A stretch of 64,000 nucleotides of DNA from Rhodospirillaceae bacterium (GTDB lineage Bacteria; Pseudomonadota; Alphaproteobacteria; Bin65): assembly GCA_028819475.1 (NCBI GenBank), contig JAPPLJ010000016.1:1-64000 (forward strand). The letters are read 5' to 3'. Shown piece by piece: positions 8,828 to 42,239 of the stretch. Position 1 is the first letter of the stretch. The number at the start of each line of letters is the position of its first letter. Under the pieces are notes generated by a model. It was not told the DNA's origin. It ran no database searches and worked only from the letters and a program-made list of their open reading frames with translations. Made by a program: the position numbers and the translations under genes.

Positions 8828-9514
8828 CTACTGCAGCTCCATCGCGTAACCGGCGGAGCGGACCGTGCGGATGACGTCGGGCGCCCGGCCGACATCGAGC
8901 GCCTTGCGCAACCGCCGGATATGCACGTCCACGGTCCGCGGCTCGACATAGACATCGTGGCCCCAGACCGAATCGAGCAGCTGCTCGCGCGAGAAGACCC
9001 GGCCCGGATGCTCCATGAAATGGCGCAGCAGGCGGAATTCGGTCGGGCCCAGATGGGTCGCCCTGCCGGCGCGCGTCACCCTGTGGGCAATCAGATCCAT
9101 CTCGATATCGGCGAATTTCAGGTTCTCGGCCGAAACGGCCGGCCGGGTCCGGCGCATGACGGCGCGAATCCGCGCGACGAGCTCCCTGGGCGAGAAGGGC
9201 TTGGTGAGATAGTCGTCGGCGCCGCTGTCCAGGCCCCGGATGCGGTCGGCTTCCTCCGATTTGGCGGTCAGCATGATCACCGGAACGTCGAGGGTCTCGC
9301 GGCGCCGGCGCAGCTGGCGGCACACCTCGATACCGGAGACCGCCGGCAGCATCCAGTCCAGGACGATCAGGTCCGGGCGGCGTTCGCGGACCGAGATCAG
9401 GGCATCCTCGCCATCCCGCGCGTCATCGACCTCGAAGCCCGCCTCTTCCAGATTGTAGCGGAGCAGCGTGACCAGCGGCGCCTCGTCTTCGACGACAAGG
9501 ATGTAGGGCTTCAT
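8828..9514 (-). CDS. phoB: Phosphate regulon response regulator PhoB
   Basis: The 228-residue response regulator has an N-terminal receiver domain, with phosphorylation site Asp53 in LIVLDWMLP, acidic residues near 10-11 and Lys in LTKPFS. A C-terminal OmpR/PhoB winged-helix domain ends RTVRSAGYAMELQ. PhoB activates phosphate-starvation genes by binding PHO boxes. The start at ATG 9514 has GGGGAAGG just upstream; longer in-frame extensions lie inside the phoU region and are not protein-like. Position as the last gene of pstSCAB-phoU-phoB fixes the identity. The cognate kinase PhoR is not in the window. Confidence 0.95.
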   Translation of the reverse strand: MKPYILVVEDEAPLVTLLRYNLEEAGFEVDDARDGEDALISVRERRPDLIVLDWMLPAVSGIEVCRQLRRRRETLDVPVIMLTAKSEEADRIRGLDSGADDYLTKPFSPRELVARIRAVMRRTRPAVSAENLKFADIEMDLIAHRVTRAGRATHLGPTEFRLLRHFMEHPGRVFSREQLLDSVWGHDVYVEPRTVDVHIRRLRKALDVGRAPDVIRTVRSAGYAMELQ

Positions 9515-35855: not shown

Positions 35856-36671
35856 ATGTTGATCGGCAAGGCGCGTCCGCTCAGAAGCGCAATCTGCACG
35901 GCGGACGAGACCAGCATCGCGGTGCGCGGACGCGACCTGTGCGGCGACCTGATGGGCGGCCTGTCCTTCACGGAGTTTTTCCTGCTCCATCTGACCGGCA
36001 AGGCGCCGAGCGCAGACCAGGCCTTCTTCCTCGACGCCATGCTGGTCGGCCTTGCCGAACACGGCGTGACGCCGAGCGTCCAGGCGGCGCGCATGACGCT
36101 CGCCGCGGCGCCGGAATCGCTACAGGGCGCGGTGGCGGCCGGGATCGCCGGCGCCGGCTCTGTTGTGCTCGGCGCGGCGGAAGAGGCCGGCCGGCTGCTG
36201 GCGCGCGGCGTTGCCGAGGCAGGCGAGGAGGCGGACGCCTTCGAAACTGCCGCCCGGCGCATTGCGGAGGAAATCCGCGCGGCGCGCCGGCCGATCCCCG
36301 GCTTCGGCCACCCCTTGCACAGGCCCGACGATCCGCGCGCGACGCGCCTGCTCGCCCTGGCGCGCGACCGCGGCGCGGCCGGCGACCACACCCGTTTTCT
36401 CGAAACCCTGGCACCGGTCGTGAACGAGGTCTGGCAGCGCAATCTGCCGGTCAACATCAACGGCGCCATCGCTTCCATCATGCTGGATCTGGAATTCCCG
36501 ATGGAGGCCCTGCGCGGCGTGCCGATCCTGGCGCGGACCGCCGGCCTGCTCGGCCATCTGTACGAGGAGAGCCAGCGGCCGATGGGCTTCCTGCTCGCCC
36601 ACCACGCCGAAGCGGCGGTCGAGTATGACGGCGAACCGCCACCGCCGGACAAAATGGCAGGGCGGGAGTGA
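35856..36671 (+). CDS. Citryl-CoA lyase/citrate synthase-like protein
   Basis: The 271-residue protein matches the short citrate-synthase-like proteins annotated as citryl-CoA lyases. It keeps the catalytic surroundings: GFGHPLHRPDDPRATRLLALA (His and Arg) and NINGAIASIMLDLEFP (the Asp). It is shorter than citrate synthase (about 430 residues). Cleavage or formation of a citryl-CoA-like thioester is the family expectation; the real substrate is unknown. A GGGGGAG ribosome-binding site precedes ATG 35856. The PaaK-like CoA ligase follows almost immediately, and an alpha/beta hydrolase was next before the transposon arrived. Confidence 0.8.
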   Translation: MLIGKARPLRSAICTADETSIAVRGRDLCGDLMGGLSFTEFFLLHLTGKAPSADQAFFLDAMLVGLAEHGVTPSVQAARMTLAAAPESLQGAVAAGIAGAGSVVLGAAEEAGRLLARGVAEAGEEADAFETAARRIAEEIRAARRPIPGFGHPLHRPDDPRATRLLALARDRGAAGDHTRFLETLAPVVNEVWQRNLPVNINGAIASIMLDLEFPMEALRGVPILARTAGLLGHLYEESQRPMGFLLAHHAEAAVEYDGEPPPPDKMAGRE

Positions 36672-36678
36672 CCGGTCC

Positions 36679-37992
36679 GTGACGGGATTCCTGCACAATC
36701 CCGCGGTCGAAACCCGGGATCCGGCGGAACAGGCGTCGCGCGACGCCGCCCGCTATCCCGAGCAGATCGGCTATCTGCTCGAAAAGTCGGACTTTTACCG
36801 CGCCAAGCTGGCCGAAGCCGGCATTGCAAGCGCCGCGGACGCCGGCGGCCTCGACGCCATCGCGAACCTGCCGTTCACGGAAAAGGACGAATTGCGCAAG
36901 AGCCAGGCGGACCATCCGCCGCTCGGCAGCCATGTCGCCGCGTCGTGGGACGAGATCGTCCGGGTCTATTCCACCAGCGGCACCAGCGGCGACCCCTGCT
37001 ACATCGCGATCACGCCGGCCGACCTCGACGTCTGGACCGAAATCTCGGCGCGCAGCTACGCCGCCTGCGGCATCCACCGCGGCCGCCGCGTGGTGCACAA
37101 TTACGGCGCCGGCCCCTTCGTCGCGGCAGCGGCCACGGACATGCTGACCCGCAACCGCATCGCCCACATCCCGGTCGGCACGGGCAATACCGAACGCTAC
37201 GTCGCCGGCATCCGCAAAATGGGCGCAACGGCGATCATGGCGACGCCCTCCTTCGCCCTGTACCTGATCGACTGGCTGGAGGAACGCGGCATCGCGCCCC
37301 GGTCGCTCTGCATCGAGCGCATGGCGGTCGCCGGCGAGCCCGGCGGCGGTGATCCGGTGATCCGCAACCGGATCGAGACGGCGTTCGGCTGCACGGCGAA
37401 CGAGGCGATGGGCATCGGCGATATGTCGATCACCCTGTGGGGCGAGTGCGAAGACCAGGGCGGCATGCATTTCAGCGGCCGGGACTTCGTCCATGTCGAG
37501 TTGATCGACCCGGAGAGCGGCGCGGCCCTGCCGTTCGAGGACGGCGCGGAAGGCGAGCTGGTCTACACCGCCCTGCGGCGCGAGGCGATGCCGTTGCTGC
37601 GCTTCCGCAGCCGCGACCATGTCACGGTCAATGCGAAACCCTGCACCTGCGGCCGGACGAGCGTGCGCGTGCGCTGCATCGGGCGGACCGACGACATGCT
37701 GATCGTGCGCGGCGTCAACCTGTTCCCCTCGGCGTTGCGGGCGGTCGTGAACCGGTTCGCGCCCCATGTCGGCGAAGTCGTGATGATCCGCCCCAGGACG
37801 CGCGGCGTGATGCAGGAGCCGCCGTTGCCGGTCGCGATCGAACTGGCCGCCGGCGCGGAGCCGCCGCCGGACCTTGCCGAGCGCATCCGGGCGGCGATCC
37901 GCAGCGAACTCATCGTCGCGACCGAGATCGAACTGGTGCCGCACCTCTCCCTGCCGCGCAGCGAATACAAAGGGAATTATACGCTATCCTAG
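36679..37992 (+). CDS. PaaK-like acyl/aryl-CoA ligase, C-terminus replaced by transposon insertion
   Basis: The 437-residue adenylate-forming enzyme resembles phenylacetate-CoA ligase. It has the phosphate loop YSTSGTSGDP, the YGAGPF region, and the A5-like EAMGIGD. The C-terminal GRTDDMLIVRGVNLFPSALRAVV is the hinge and mobile domain. GTG 36679 is the likely start; an in-frame ATG at 36625 lies inside the preceding gene. The IS1595-type transposon entered at codon AAA of SEYK. The protein now ends GNYTLS; joining the flanks across the insertion gives SRLVDFGKAG and a stop. Only about ten C-terminal residues are lost, so activity may remain. Confidence 0.86.
   Translation: MTGFLHNPAVETRDPAEQASRDAARYPEQIGYLLEKSDFYRAKLAEAGIASAADAGGLDAIANLPFTEKDELRKSQADHPPLGSHVAASWDEIVRVYSTSGTSGDPCYIAITPADLDVWTEISARSYAACGIHRGRRVVHNYGAGPFVAAAATDMLTRNRIAHIPVGTGNTERYVAGIRKMGATAIMATPSFALYLIDWLEERGIAPRSLCIERMAVAGEPGGGDPVIRNRIETAFGCTANEAMGIGDMSITLWGECEDQGGMHFSGRDFVHVELIDPESGAALPFEDGAEGELVYTALRREAMPLLRFRSRDHVTVNAKPCTCGRTSVRVRCIGRTDDMLIVRGVNLFPSALRAVVNRFAPHVGEVVMIRPRTRGVMQEPPLPVAIELAAGAEPPPDLAERIRAAIRSELIVATEIELVPHLSLPRSEYKGNYTLS
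37964..37971. repeat. Target-site duplication, left copy
   Basis: AATACAAA directly abuts the left inverted repeat and is repeated exactly at 42232-42239 outside the right one. Eight bases is the duplication length known for the IS1595 family. Confidence 0.93.
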
Positions 37993-37996
37993 CCAA
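37972..37996. repeat. Left terminal inverted repeat
   Basis: The 25 bases beginning GGGAATTATACGCTATCC match the reverse complement of 42207-42231 perfectly. Translation of the ligase runs into it and stops at TAG within the repeat. Confidence 0.95.
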
Positions 37997-38004
37997 GCGC
38001 CCGA

Positions 38005-38184
38005 TTATCGGGCCGGTTTTTCCTTGCGGTTGTAGGCTTTCGGGAGACGCAACGACGGGTCCGGGCGCTTGACCCCGGAGAAGATCGCGCGGGCGACCTG
38101 TTCAGGCGTCGCATCAATCCGGGGCATGGGACGCGGCGGGCGACCGCGGGGCTTCTTGTGCGGGTCTGGTCTGTCGTCGGTCAT
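38005..38184 (-). CDS. Small basic AT-hook-like protein, last gene of the transposon
   Basis: A 59-residue product (ATG 38184, TAA 38005) rich in Arg, Lys and Pro. The segment KKPRGRPPRP contains the GRP core of AT-hook DNA-binding motifs, and MPRIDATPEQVARAIFSG follows. No family is assigned by me. Short proteins with an ATPE-VARA helix are often seen near insertion sequences, but I cannot verify this. It starts 11 bases after the endonuclease stop codon and ends 8 bases before the left inverted repeat. It may bind the A/T-richer transposon ends or act as a controller-like protein. Confidence 0.6.
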   Translation of the reverse strand: MTDDRPDPHKKPRGRPPRPMPRIDATPEQVARAIFSGVKRPDPSLRLPKAYNRKEKPAR

Positions 38185-38195
38185 GGCGAGTCTCC

Positions 38196-39116
38196 CTAGA
38201 TCACCCGGACGGCATGGTGGAAGACCTCATTCGTGAAGTCGTTCCAATGGTCGTCGTCTTGGTCAAGATCGTCGAGCATGTAGACCTTGACGTTGCCGAG
38301 CGCGTCGAGTCTGGCCTGCATCTCTGGGGTGACGACGCCCGCAATAAGGAAGTTCTGGCAGCCCGGCGGCGTCTCGGCGAAGCTCTTTGACATAGCGCCA
38401 AGGCGTTCAAGCGCCCCGGCCGGGTCGCGACCGCCCTTGATCTCGATTGTGGCAATCAGCCGACCGTCCCGCACGAAGTCAATGTCCGGTTCCGAGCCGT
38501 AACGCATGATCGTGTCTTTGGGCAGGCTGTACTGCCCGATTTCGGGCGCATCCGGGGCAAGTGTGCCGCGCTTCTTCAGCCAAGCTACGATCCTGTCCTT
38601 GACCAGCGCCTCGGCCATGTCGCCGATCCGGTTTCGGAACATGCCATCAAGGGTTATTCCCATCGTCGCGACGATGTTCCGGTAGCCGTTTTCAAGCGCC
38701 CAATCGACCTTGCCCTCTATGATCGAGGAAATGGCGAGATTGTAGAAGCGGGCCGCCCGGCTGGCCCTGTCGAACGAGATTTGAGTCCTTCCCCCGGTCT
38801 CCCACGATTTGACATCAACCCGCGCTTCCTGAACCACCCGCTTGAGCGGCAAAAGGGCGATCCCTCGATAGTACGCGGACGTGCGGGGATGGGCTTGAAG
38901 CATGTCCGGGTGCGCAAAGACCATCTTCGGCGCGACGCCCAGACCGGCGACATGATTCCATGCGCCGCCACTGATCATGCGCTCCTCAATAGGTTCGAAG
39001 GCGAGGGGCGCAGCGTAGCCCTCAATGACCCGGCGCTGTGCATCGTCGTCCCGCCGCGCGATGATCTCGGCGAACAGTTGCGACCGATGCCGGGTTGCAT
39101 CCGACAGTTCAGGCAC
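38196..39116 (-). CDS. Type II restriction endonuclease-like protein (PD-(D/E)XK)
   Basis: The 306-residue product has a plausible nuclease core: EPDIDFV (Pro210, Asp211), followed by ATIEIKGG with Glu225 and Lys227, a PD-X13-EXK arrangement. It is followed by RDPAGALERLGAM. This context resembles my memory of XcyI-type enzymes (CCCGGG), but the match needs a profile search. The GTG at 39116 overlaps the methyltransferase stop by 8 bases; the frame continues upstream but only inside the methyltransferase gene. Placement directly behind an m4C-type methyltransferase supports a restriction role. The region before residue 50 is weakly constrained. Confidence 0.75.
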   Translation of the reverse strand: MPELSDATRHRSQLFAEIIARRDDDAQRRVIEGYAAPLAFEPIEERMISGGAWNHVAGLGVAPKMVFAHPDMLQAHPRTSAYYRGIALLPLKRVVQEARVDVKSWETGGRTQISFDRASRAARFYNLAISSIIEGKVDWALENGYRNIVATMGITLDGMFRNRIGDMAEALVKDRIVAWLKKRGTLAPDAPEIGQYSLPKDTIMRYGSEPDIDFVRDGRLIATIEIKGGRDPAGALERLGAMSKSFAETPPGCQNFLIAGVVTPEMQARLDALGNVKVYMLDDLDQDDDHWNDFTNEVFHHAVRVI

Positions 39117-40506
39117 TGGACCGCCGCCACCTGTAGACGCACTTGCGCAACTCTTTCCGACCGAACCGGGCCATCTGCTGACTCGAATTGCCCTTGCCGC
39201 GTGCGAGCGCCCAAATCGCTTCGCACTCGAAACCGGATTGCTCGGCAAAGTCCGACAAGATGAAATCGACCGGCAATTCTTCGCCGTGATACTGCACGTT
39301 GTCGTTGACCATGATCACGGTCCCGCCGGGGCGGACGACCCGGCCCAGTTCGGCGACGACGACGGCCATTTCGAGGAAATAGGAATCGACCAGGCGAATG
39401 ACGTGGCGGTTGCTCAACTCGCCTTCATGCTCCCGGAGAATTGCCAGCGCCTCATGCAGCGCGCCCTGGGCGGCGTGCATTTCGGCGGCATGGGCCAACG
39501 TGTCCGACGCATCGGCATACTGCGCTTCCAGCCATTCCGTCTTTGCCCGGTTTTCGACGGTCGCCGAAAGCATACTTTGGCGCAAATCGGAAAAGCCGTC
39601 CCGGTCGTAGCCCATCCATGCGAGCTCAAGCGCGTAGGTCCGGGTGTAATCGTAGCGGTTCGCGTACGGCGGCGACGTTATCACCATGTCGAAAGACGCC
39701 GCCGGCAACTGCCGCAGAAGCTCAAGGCAGGACCCCACCCGAAGATCGGGGCGCCCTTCCCCGTATTCGTCCTTGAGCGGCCCTATATCCGCCACGATCT
39801 CGGCGATCCGGTCTTCCAGCGCGTCGCTGAACCGGGCCACGTCGCCCTTGTGCACGCCGGATCGAAGTGGCCGCCCCGAACGGCTATCCCATCGGAGATA
39901 CTGGCCGTCCTTCCGGGTGTAGCTCGCATCTTCAAGGACCGAAACGCAGGCCAGATCCAACAAGGCCCTGTGCGCTTCGTTATCGACGCTCGCCAGAAAG
40001 GCGCGGGCCGTCGCAATTTCTTCTTCTGTCTCCGCCGGGAACGCGCGCTCGGTGATCCGCACATGCGGAAACTCGAAACCGTCGCGGTCGCAGCGCCGCC
40101 CCCGGACGCATTGCACCATCTTGCGCCCGGCACGGGCAAAGCTATCGGGGCAAAGCCCGTTCGACGCCTCGGCGATCGCGTTGCCCGCCAACACGCCGAC
40201 AGGCATTATCTCGATCCCCGTCCCGGCCTTGCCGCTTCCGGCCGCAACCAGAGGGGCCGTCCCGATCCCGGCAAAGGGGTCGAGCACGTCATCCGGGTCA
40301 TGCGCCGCCAGAAAATCGGCGACCAACTGCCGGGAGAATCCCTCCTTGTATTTCAGCCAGCGGAAGCCGGGAACATCGCGGTTTCCTTGGTAGGAGACCA
40401 GCCGCCGGTTGAGACCGTCATTGACGGACAGGCGCGGCGAAAATCTGTCGGATAGCCTCTGGCGCTCCCCTGTCGGGCCACCATTGGGCGACAGTGCCGC
40501 GCTCAT
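39109..40506 (-). CDS. DNA methyltransferase, probable N4-cytosine type
   Basis: The 465-residue enzyme has the S-adenosylmethionine-binding motif DPFAGIGT at 76-83 and the catalytic motif TSPPY at 277-281. TSPPY is characteristic of N4-cytosine methyltransferases (adenine enzymes usually have DPPY or NPPY). About 195 residues between the two motifs probably hold target recognition. A later PGGTVIMVND strand belongs to the catalytic fold. It would protect host DNA against the endonuclease encoded immediately downstream, and its start touches the stop of a 24-residue peptide gene. Recognition sequence is unknown. Confidence 0.87.
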   Translation of the reverse strand: MSAALSPNGGPTGERQRLSDRFSPRLSVNDGLNRRLVSYQGNRDVPGFRWLKYKEGFSRQLVADFLAAHDPDDVLDPFAGIGTAPLVAAGSGKAGTGIEIMPVGVLAGNAIAEASNGLCPDSFARAGRKMVQCVRGRRCDRDGFEFPHVRITERAFPAETEEEIATARAFLASVDNEAHRALLDLACVSVLEDASYTRKDGQYLRWDSRSGRPLRSGVHKGDVARFSDALEDRIAEIVADIGPLKDEYGEGRPDLRVGSCLELLRQLPAASFDMVITSPPYANRYDYTRTYALELAWMGYDRDGFSDLRQSMLSATVENRAKTEWLEAQYADASDTLAHAAEMHAAQGALHEALAILREHEGELSNRHVIRLVDSYFLEMAVVVAELGRVVRPGGTVIMVNDNVQYHGEELPVDFILSDFAEQSGFECEAIWALARGKGNSSQQMARFGRKELRKCVYRWRRSSA

Positions 40507-40581
40507 CTACTCATCTCGATCTTCGCGGATCAGATGCCCAACGCCTTGATCCTTCGGCTTCTTCGGGGTTTTGGCGGTCAT
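40507..40581 (-). CDS. 24-residue peptide, partial duplicate of the coiled-coil gene end
   Basis: ATG 40581 to TAG 40507 encodes MTAKTPKKPK followed by DQGVGHLIREDRDE. The second half is nearly identical to the C-terminus of the protein encoded at 40880-41200 (DQGVGHLIREDRE). The DNA of 40518-40552 repeats 40899-40933. Its stop codon abuts the methyltransferase ATG, so it may act as a leader coupling translation rather than as a functional protein. Confidence 0.45.
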   Translation of the reverse strand: MTAKTPKKPKDQGVGHLIREDRDE

Positions 40582-40586
40582 CGGTT

Positions 40587-40883
40587 TCAACTCCCGGCGA
40601 TCAGGCCGTCCAGACGAAACTCCTTGAGCTGCACGCTCAACATCCGGCGGGCTTCATACGCGGCTTCCAAATCCTCCCGGCTCTTGTGCGTTTCGCCATG
40701 AGCAAAATCGGACAGATCGGATGCTTCGACCAGTGCAGGGTCTTGCTCAAGACGCGGCCCCAACCGGGCCATTGTCTTGCCTAGCCGCCGCAGCTTGCAT
40801 TCCAGCGCGGCGATCTTCTCTTCATTGGTCGAATATTCCCGCACAACCCGAAGAATCTCTGCGTCCCGGTCGCCGTCGGTCAT
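40587..40883 (-). CDS. Transposon coiled-coil protein B
   Basis: The 98-residue product begins MTDGDRDAEILRVVREYSTN and continues as a charged helix with heptad spacing (IAALECKLRRLGKTMARL), then a second helix (EDLEAAYEARRMLSVQLKEF). It is homologous to protein A encoded directly upstream: TGDEKDTEIGRTLREY aligns with TDGDRDAEILRVVREY. The two probably arose by tandem duplication and may form a heterodimer. ATG 40883 overlaps the stop of protein A as ATGA. No known family is recognised; a role in transposition or in the R-M system is open. Confidence 0.7.
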   Translation of the reverse strand: MTDGDRDAEILRVVREYSTNEEKIAALECKLRRLGKTMARLGPRLEQDPALVEASDLSDFAHGETHKSREDLEAAYEARRMLSVQLKEFRLDGLIAGS

Positions 40884-41200
40884 CGGTTTGTCTCCCGGTC
40901 TTCGCGGATCAGATGGCCAACGCCTTGATCCTGTAGCGCCTTGTACAACCGCCGCTTGGCCGCGTCCGCCTTGGCGATCTCCATCAGCAGATCGCGGATC
41001 GACACGTCGCCGGCTTCCTCCGCAGCCGATTGCGCCTTCGCGGCCACTGAACCTGACTTGGCGGCAATGGCTTCCTGCACATTCTCGATACGGTCGAACA
41101 GCCGACTCAGCTTCGACGCCAGACAACCGAGTCGATCCGACTCCGCCTGATACTCCCGGAGCGTGCGCCCGATCTCGGTGTCTTTTTCGTCGCCGGTCAC
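40880..41200 (-). CDS. Transposon coiled-coil protein A
   Basis: The 106-residue product starts at GTG 41200, which overlaps the transposase stop as GTGA, so translation is coupled to the transposase. An N-terminal long helix (GRTLREYQAESDRLGCLASKLSRLFDRIENVQEAI) is followed by an alanine-rich linker and a second helix (DLLMEIAKADAAKRRLYKAL) ending DQGVGHLIREDRETNR. It is the paralogue of protein B. Family unknown. Position next to the transposase suggests an accessory transposition factor, but this is inference. Confidence 0.7.
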   Translation of the reverse strand: MTGDEKDTEIGRTLREYQAESDRLGCLASKLSRLFDRIENVQEAIAAKSGSVAAKAQSAAEEAGDVSIRDLLMEIAKADAAKRRLYKALQDQGVGHLIREDRETNR

Positions 41201-42147
41201 GCCACCAAGTCCCGGTAGCGGAGCCGCTTGCCGACCATGCCGCGGGCCAGCAGGGACATCTGCGCCAGCGTGTCGAGGTCGCGGATATTGTGGCGTCCGG
41301 CAAATTCGCGAACGTAGCGGGGCAGGTGCTTTTCCGACACATGGTGAAACGTGCCGTGCAGGCCGCGCTTGAAGATGGCCCAAAGGGCTTCGATCCCCTG
41401 CGTGTGCGCTTCGCCTCGCACATATTCGCCCGCGCTGTGCCGGACGGTCGCGTGCGCCCGGTCCTTCATGCCCCGATAGGCGCGGGCATCGTCGGTGTAG
41501 ACCGTCGCGCCCTTTTCCGTGCGCTCCGCCACGAAGCCCTTGAGGGTGTCGCCGTCGGTATTCTCGACAACGGCGGCGCTGACCTGTTTCGAGTCACGGT
41601 CCCGGACGCCAGCGACGGCAACCTTCCCGCCGGTCCCGCCGCCGACCTTCAGCTTTTTCGAGGCGTGCTTGTTTTTCTCTTTGCCGCCGATATAGGTTTC
41701 GTCGGCTTCGACCGGGCCGGGGAATGGCAGGCCCGCGTTGTCGTCAAAGGCTTCCCGGATGCGGTGCATCAGGTGCCATGCCGTCGCCTGCCGCATTCCG
41801 ATGTCCCGATAGACCTTCATGCTGGCCGTGCCCTTGATGCCGGTCGTCGCTAAGTACAGGGCAATCGCCCATTTTTGCAGGCCGAGATTGCTGGACTGCA
41901 TGACTGTTCCCTTCTTGACCGAGAAATGCGCCCGGCAGTCGCGGCAGCGGTAGGGCATGGGTTTCCGGCTTTTAACCGGAACGGTGTTGACCGAACCGCA
42001 TTCGGGGCAGTAGCGGCCTGTCGGCCAACGCTGCGACTCGAACCAGCGTTCGGCGGCAGCATCGTCGGGGAACATCCGAAGCAACTGGACAACGGTGAGT
42101 CCCTCACGGTGCGAGCGTCCGGGGCCATTCTTCGCCATTTCTGCCAT
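41197..42147 (-). CDS. IS1595-family (ISXO2-like) transposase
   Basis: The 316-residue transposase has an N-terminal zinc ribbon (Cys47, Cys50, Cys68, Cys71). A helical region follows, with IRE preceding the ISXO2-like DDE nuclease domain: Asp149 in VEADETYIGG, Asp219/220 in VYTDDARAY, and Glu253 in HTQGIEALWAIFKRG. Full family length and no disruption suggest it is active. The N-terminal start could be ATG 42147 or ATG 42138. It lies 59 bases inside the right inverted repeat, with a promoter in between, and heads the cargo operon. Confidence 0.95.
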   Translation of the reverse strand: MAEMAKNGPGRSHREGLTVVQLLRMFPDDAAAERWFESQRWPTGRYCPECGSVNTVPVKSRKPMPYRCRDCRAHFSVKKGTVMQSSNLGLQKWAIALYLATTGIKGTASMKVYRDIGMRQATAWHLMHRIREAFDDNAGLPFPGPVEADETYIGGKEKNKHASKKLKVGGGTGGKVAVAGVRDRDSKQVSAAVVENTDGDTLKGFVAERTEKGATVYTDDARAYRGMKDRAHATVRHSAGEYVRGEAHTQGIEALWAIFKRGLHGTFHHVSEKHLPRYVREFAGRHNIRDLDTLAQMSLLARGMVGKRLRYRDLVA

Positions 42148-42171
42148 CCGTCAATCGGTTTCTATGGCTAG

Positions 42172-42200
42172 AATATGGCGATTAAATCGGCAGTTGTCAA
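42172..42200 (-). promoter_or_regulatory. Promoter of the transposon operon
   Basis: On the minus strand a perfect TTGACA (42195-42200) is followed after 17 bases by CATATT (42172-42177). Transcription would begin about 18 bases before the transposase ATG and could run through all seven genes. The -35 lies 6 bases inside the right inverted repeat, so bound transposase could repress it. Confidence 0.55.
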
Positions 42201-42206
42201 GCGATT

Positions 42207-42231
42207 TTGGCTAGGATAGCGTATAATTCCC
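42207..42231. repeat. Right terminal inverted repeat
   Basis: Perfect 25-base inverted match to 37972-37996, ending GCGTATAATTCCC, immediately followed by the AATACAAA duplication. Confidence 0.95.
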
Positions 42232-42239
42232 AATACAAA
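42232..42239. repeat. Target-site duplication, right copy
   Basis: AATACAAA, identical to 37964-37971. Immediately after it the original ligase reading frame resumes (AGCCGGCTGGTCGATTTCGG) and ends in TAG at 42269-42271. Confidence 0.93.

Follow-up and report, generated by a model that had tools for sequence, protein, structure and literature searches.

A probably autonomous IS1595-type transposon carrying an XcyI-type restriction-modification pair in a Rhodospirillaceae bacterium

Passenger genes in IS1595 elements and restriction-modification (R-M) systems on transposons are both established (PMC5704250, PMC3129680, PMC4081073, PMC8649781, PMC3031569). Among IS1595 elements, tISCpe8 and MTnSag1/tISSag10 are known examples of transporter ISs, which carry passenger genes (Siguier et al. 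2009, as cited in PMC5704250 and PMC3129680), and an 8-bp target duplication is typical of the family. As to R-M systems, composite-type and IS1/IS5-linked movement has been described for PaeR7I (Takahashi et al. 2011, PMC3031569), PluTI is reportedly linked to insertion sequences (Khan et al. 2010), and R-M systems are the most frequent defence cargo of Tn7-like transposons (PMC8649781). The XcyI/Cfr9I R-M family (PF09571) has also been found in SGI1-related islands (PMC9035990).

Here we describe a 4,260-bp unit at positions 37972-42231 of the window, by which we mean the whole stretch of 64,000 nucleotides of contig JAPPLJ010000016.1 that was analysed. Most likely, this unit is a complete, probably autonomous IS1595 transposon (a transporter IS) that carries an intact XcyI-type R-M pair, was inserted after the split from the sister species and belongs to a recurrent type; its transposition and the activity of its enzymes are inferred. 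Like tISCpe8 and MTnSag1/tISSag10, it combines an IS1595 transposase, inverted ends of about 25 bp, a target duplication and unrelated passengers in one unit, but their cargo consists of drug-resistance or mobilisation genes, whereas here a Type II R-M pair lies behind the transposase. As in the XcyI/Cfr9I family, an endonuclease scoring over the PF09571 cut-off is adjacent to a Type II methyltransferase; unlike in that family, the pair is carried by an IS1595 unit (neither its recognition sequence nor its methylated base has been shown). As with PaeR7I and PluTI, R-M genes move with the help of an IS, but those are flanked by ISs, adjacent to one or plasmid-borne, whereas these are enclosed in one unit that encodes its own transposase. 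Tn7-like transposons likewise have R-M systems as cargo, but they are large, multi-protein and site-selecting, in contrast to the IS1595 elements described here, which measure 1.6-4.6 kb and have one DDE transposase. No link between IS1595/ISXO2 and R-M cargo was found in the open-access literature searched, which did not cover the papers defining IS1595 or ISfinder, nor in the bearing sections of PMC9296519, PMC6563490 and PMC10273834. What may be new is the location of R-M genes inside one IS1595 unit, although absence from print has not been shown. The features of the locus are as follows:

36625-37992, plus strand: interrupted host gene, last codons replaced by element sequence
37964-37971: target-site duplication, left copy, AATACAAA; empty site in sisters
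37972-37996: terminal inverted repeat, transposase-distal, 25 bp, perfect
38005-38184, minus strand: small tail ORF, 59 aa, ATPE.VARA-like motif type
38196-39116, minus strand: XcyI-family restriction endonuclease (R), 306 aa, GTG start (inferred), PF09571
39109-40506, minus strand: Type II DNA methyltransferase (M), 465 aa, assigned by PADLOC and motifs
40587-40883, minus strand: small ORF, 98 aa, no recognised function
40880-41200, minus strand: small ORF, 106 aa, GTG start, no recognised function
41197-42147, minus strand: IS1595 transposase, 316 aa, zinc ribbon and ISXO2-like DDE domain
42172-42200, minus strand: promoter-like site TTGACA-17-CATATT ahead of the transposase, consensus match only
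42207-42231: terminal inverted repeat, transposase-proximal, 25 bp, perfect
42232-42239: target-site duplication, right copy, AATACAAA; empty site in sisters

All genes of the element lie on one strand, with the transposase first; its 25-nt arms are 100% complementary, and the 8-bp duplication is exact at both edges. For the interrupted host gene, which we take by eye to be CoA-ligase-like, five of the six other genus genomes searched gave an orthologue, with 91-95% identity. The site was empty in all five, each orthologue continuing uninterrupted across the junction (97.6% nucleotide identity without a gap in the nearest one) and having AATACAAG at the position of the window's duplication. 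Since the sister orthologues are empty at this site, the 4,260 bp and a further 8 bp were gained in the lineage of the window, and therefore M, R and the rest of the element arrived together. When up to three mismatches were allowed, the ends gave one forward and one reverse match in the draft genome, both the element's own, and no second copy; the element is single-copy in this draft. With M and R, which are not needed for transposition, located inside the ends of a single IS, the criterion of a transporter IS is met.

An earlier note, made from the sequence alone, had claimed a complete IS1595-type transposon with perfect 25-bp ends and an exact 8-bp duplication, and this held in every detail. 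Its placing of a transposase, a TSPPY methyltransferase and a PD-X13-EXK endonuclease candidate inside these ends held as well, by profiles and motifs (the motifs reading SPPY and PD-X13-EIK), and its view of the R-M pair as cargo of a mobile unit is supported, and strengthened by the empty sites in five of five sisters. The three small ORFs were absent from it.

The transposase matched PF12762 (2.2e-38) and, at its N-terminal zinc ribbon, PF12760 (2.2e-8), both over the cut-off, as well as the NCBIfam IS1595 model NF033547 (1.2e-54). A PF12762 domain with a zinc ribbon, short inverted ends and an 8-bp duplication together meet the criteria of the IS1595 family. The promoter-like site is located just within the transposase-proximal end, and similar sites are visible, partly by eye, in many other IS1595 elements. 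The genes are arranged in the order transposase, 106-aa ORF, 98-aa ORF, M, R and 59-aa ORF, with overlaps between neighbours of 4, 4 and 8 nt (the last between the M and R frames) and gaps of 80 and 11 nt. Profile searches, including Pfam, PADLOC and NCBIfam, gave nothing over the cut-off for the 106-aa and 98-aa ORFs, which are also without a relative in the other IS1595 elements fetched; the 59-aa ORF has no Pfam match. Small ORFs with an ATPE.VARA-like motif are found repeatedly at the end away from the transposase, whether or not the IS1595 element has R-M genes, and 7 of the 13 new matches to a profile of this ORF in a search of the genus (E <1e-3, sequences used in building the profile excluded, places compared by hand) lay within or beside IS1595 elements. 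Separately, a 40-nt direct repeat (93%; 40514-40553 and 40893-40932) repeats the 3' end of the 106-aa ORF ahead of the methyltransferase gene, and could be a scar of cargo exchange.

R matched PF09571 (RE_XcyI) at 6.8e-13 and 49 bits against a cut-off of 25, in a scan that used the longer TTG frame 38196-39248, and matched a BsoBI profile weakly. Its nuclease motif is PD-X13-EIK, with P, D, E and K invariant in all five R proteins aligned. The structure model of R was moderate (pLDDT 78.6, pTM 0.54), and Foldseek returned no match to it at E 0.001 or below; in VIA-align, BsoBI came top, with Z 11.9 over 211 residues and an rmsd of 5.8 (next row 9.0), so that this restriction enzyme is the best solved relative of the predicted fold. 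M matched the PADLOC model MTase_II (PDLC03224) at 2e-110 and has motif I, DPFAGIG, followed by motif IV, SPPY. With a PF09571 endonuclease that has a PD...(D/E)xK motif and an adjacent methyltransferase, the criteria of an XcyI-type R-M system are met, and the enzyme activities are inferred. BsoBI cuts CYCGRG and XcyI cuts CCCGGG, and XcyI-type systems methylate to m4C; such cut sites might fit the fold and family of the window's R, whose specificity is not shown. The element has no CCCGGG against 7.3 expected, but this avoidance was rejected as proof of specificity: 26 other IS1595 elements are depleted too (5 vs 44.4), and the M and R genes of five XcyI-type relatives show no depletion (4 vs 4.95).

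Relatives of R were found in 5 of 385 genomes of the class, the window's genome included, and at two Latescibacterota loci; the R protein also matched one plasmid record (Nostoc, 31%) and one phage record (29%). M lies beside R in five of the six relatives, the sixth being a weak match with stops. The closest relative, that of genome G261, has the remnant of an IS1595 transposase immediately 5' of M and in the same orientation; the remnant shows 36-45% identity, with a best E of 1e-14 in a comparison with a very small sequence set. The other four relatives with adjacent M have no IS1595 transposase in the fetched flanks, one contig ending close by, and thus the XcyI-type pair is not tied to IS1595. 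The G261 unit with its remnant is flanked by a 300-nt direct repeat of host sequence (99%; 8952-9251 and 11962-12261 of L010), which is perhaps reminiscent of R-M insertion with a long target duplication.

The window's draft genome has 11 IS1595 transposases. Transposase searches gave 27 places at the level of the family, 36 of the class and 12 of the phylum (the latter two partly overlapping earlier ones), and their surroundings were fetched. To be delimited, an element had to show an 8-bp duplication without mismatch, ends agreeing at 13 or more of 18 bases, and one end near the transposase start. This rule was passed by 35 of 59 transposase hits, vs 11 of 1,180 shuffled-sequence trials; reversed sequence gave 1 hit, and a random anchor 0 hits in only 10 trials. 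A 36th element, L118, was accepted under a looser rule only, its end being 387 bp from the transposase hit. The 36 include two elements nested in L132. A 7.5-kb boundary call at L107 was spurious and was left out of the counts. Of the 398 genomes of the phylum, 8 have the transposase at E <=1e-60; all 8 belong to the one class, and other classes are thus not covered; no plasmid match was obtained at 1e-60.

A DNA methyltransferase is encoded in 13 of the 36 delimited elements, nearly always with a nuclease, and the cargo types comprise XcyI, BglII, NotI and GIY-YIG pairs, IIG-like systems and methyltransferase-HNH fusions. All four pairs made up of two genes have M after the transposase and R after M. 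The cargo of the relatives is:

L060: m5C methyltransferase and GIY-YIG
L106: D12 methyltransferase and NotI family (1e-39)
L110: methyltransferase and BglII family (1.7e-32; PADLOC 3.3e-84)
L105: IIG-like and specificity subunit, nuclease part from PADLOC IIG models
L075: IIG-like with S domain, nuclease part from PADLOC IIG models
L027, L028, L029, L032, L124: methyltransferase-HNH (L124 identified by eye, without a profile; in L028 the methyltransferase is a PF01555 hit and the HNH part is inferred from equality with L029)
L031: methyltransferase and a weak match to the Mrr profile Mrr_cat (E 0.0022, short of the cut-off)
L072: methyltransferase alone, transposase broken

The variety of these cargoes suggests that IS1595 elements of this type are a recurrent vehicle of R-M systems. 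In the window's genome, the delimited elements make up 0.5% of the sequence yet contain 5 of the 9 PF01555 hits, as against 1 hit of 20 across the six further genomes of the genus. In 23 of the 36 elements, there was no methyltransferase and the cargo was of another kind or was not recognised, which indicates that R-M genes are not required by the element. Such cargo includes a proteasome-like protein, a P63C protein, what we take by eye to be an EamA-like transporter, and, in L114, a GIY-YIG protein without a methyltransferase. The proteasome-like protein (PF00227, 3.7e-12) of the element at L066:9040-10242 has as its neighbour a protein of 148 aa that matches nothing in Pfam and that we take by eye to resemble a Panacea-type antitoxin.

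One relative has multiplied. Genome G300 has a BglII-type element in four copies, L125-L128, identical over 2,746-2,748 bp, which probably reflects the movement of such elements as a unit. The duplication of L125, TTAAAATT, is exact; that of L128 is exact, by eye, once a single base change near the end is tolerated. L126-L128 fail the strict delimitation rule. The flanks of L126 and L127 do not match and both share TATGGATT, as recombination between copies might leave them, suggesting a chromosomal rearrangement. Cargo may also be altered within an element: in two sister elements with methyltransferase-HNH genes in the window's genome (L028:7126-8358, minus strand, and L029:5842-7200, plus strand), the N-terminal ~145 residues of the methyltransferase are nearly identical and the C-terminal ~160 identical, with unrelated central parts, which has the look of a target-recognition domain exchange. 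On the tree of transposases, the R-M label has to change 8 times, and strong branch support makes at least 3 of these changes unavoidable, which indicates repeated capture or loss of R-M genes. Clustering of the label was not beyond chance, 62 of 500 shuffles being as low. The broken L072 (left out for length) and L118 are absent from this tree, and the L114 row, a wrong frame with a branch length of 10, should be disregarded.

Two outcomes that the earlier note had named as refuting it were not borne out. The doubt about the nuclease fold is countered by the XcyI match above the Pfam cut-off and by BsoBI as the best structural relative, and related ends enclose not unrelated genes only but unrelated genes or other R-M systems. 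Its suggestion that the module could move itself is supported, as to movement as a unit, by the four near-identical BglII-type copies. The m4C type that it gave to the methyltransferase is expected of methyltransferases of this type with SPPY but is not shown.

The elements are also poor in palindromes. In 27 IS1595 elements, 6-bp palindromes had an observed/expected ratio of 0.59, vs 0.85 in their own flanks, and 24 of the 27 elements had a lower ratio than their flank (sign test 5e-5); the most depleted were CCCGGG, GCATGC, GGATCC and GGGCCC, and non-palindromic control words were not depleted in these elements. In the set of 36, fewer palindromes than in the flanks were found in 30, ratios were lower in the 13 R-M-bearing elements than in the remaining 23 (p 0.005), and the window's element had the lowest ratio of all (0.29). 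These p-values are optimistic because related elements are not independent. Such avoidance fits DNA that is frequently brought into cells whose restriction systems are foreign to it.

In the mechanism that we propose, the element would have been inserted after its lineage split from the sister species. Through its action on the 25-bp ends, the transposase would move the whole 4.26-kb unit and leave the 8-bp duplication. The promoter just inside the end would probably drive one operon of transposase, two small ORFs, M, R and tail ORF, in which the methyltransferase is encoded ahead of the endonuclease; expression from this single promoter is inferred. Because the promoter sits inside the element end, each new copy would bring its own expression. 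IS1595 elements of the class would have taken up R-M systems on several separate occasions. The R-M pair, by inference, would aid the persistence of the element, through harm to cells from which it is lost and through cleavage of rival DNA. Post-segregational killing has been proposed to favour joint movement of R-M systems and ISs, and on that ground (Takahashi et al. 2011, PMC3031569), without data of our own, the addictive module envisaged by the earlier note is plausible only.

The rival that survives best is that of neutral passengers, which remains possible: IS1595 elements of the class would take up any genes, R-M genes being frequent by chance and useless to the element. In its favour, 23 of the 36 elements have other cargo or none recognised, and R-M-bearing elements do not cluster on the transposase tree more than chance allows. 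Against it stand the concentration of PF01555 hits in the elements of the window's genome, the recurrence of several unrelated R-M types, and the stronger palindrome avoidance in the R-M-bearing elements. It is unlikely that the system is decayed or serves modification only, with R inactive and M acting as a solitary epigenetic regulator or a shield against host restriction. Solitary methyltransferases are common, and L072 keeps one in a unit with a broken transposase, but in the window both frames are of full length and overlap, and the nuclease residues are kept as in all five aligned relatives. Very improbable is movement in trans by a related transposase, for which speak the ten other IS1595 transposases in the genome and the similar outer end GGGAATTATA of several elements, but against which speak the element's own full-length transposase with both domains and an inner end unlike that of any other element and without a second match in the genome. 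A composite transposon, with cargo between two whole IS copies, was ruled out by the single transposase gene of the unit and, further, by the presence in the draft of only two end sequences, both its own.

Beyond the preferred reading of a transporter IS with an R-M pair, a bolder one can be put forward, against which the balance tips slightly at present: that IS1595 elements of the class are minimal selfish R-M transposons, transposase-led operons that would repeatedly capture and exchange R-M systems and target-recognition domains, travel between hosts under restriction pressure, and use R-M activity to hold their place and attack rival DNA.

The proposal that R-M systems are selfish mobile units is an old one, with a plasmid, phage, large island or flanking IS pair as the usual vehicle. 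Here, an R-M system lies within one of the smallest kinds of self-moving unit; its ends are precise, its site is empty in sister genomes, and a relative exists in four near-identical copies. The ends of IS1595 elements offer a simple way of finding further R-M systems, and such units allow a direct test of whether a transposon spreads better with restriction activity.
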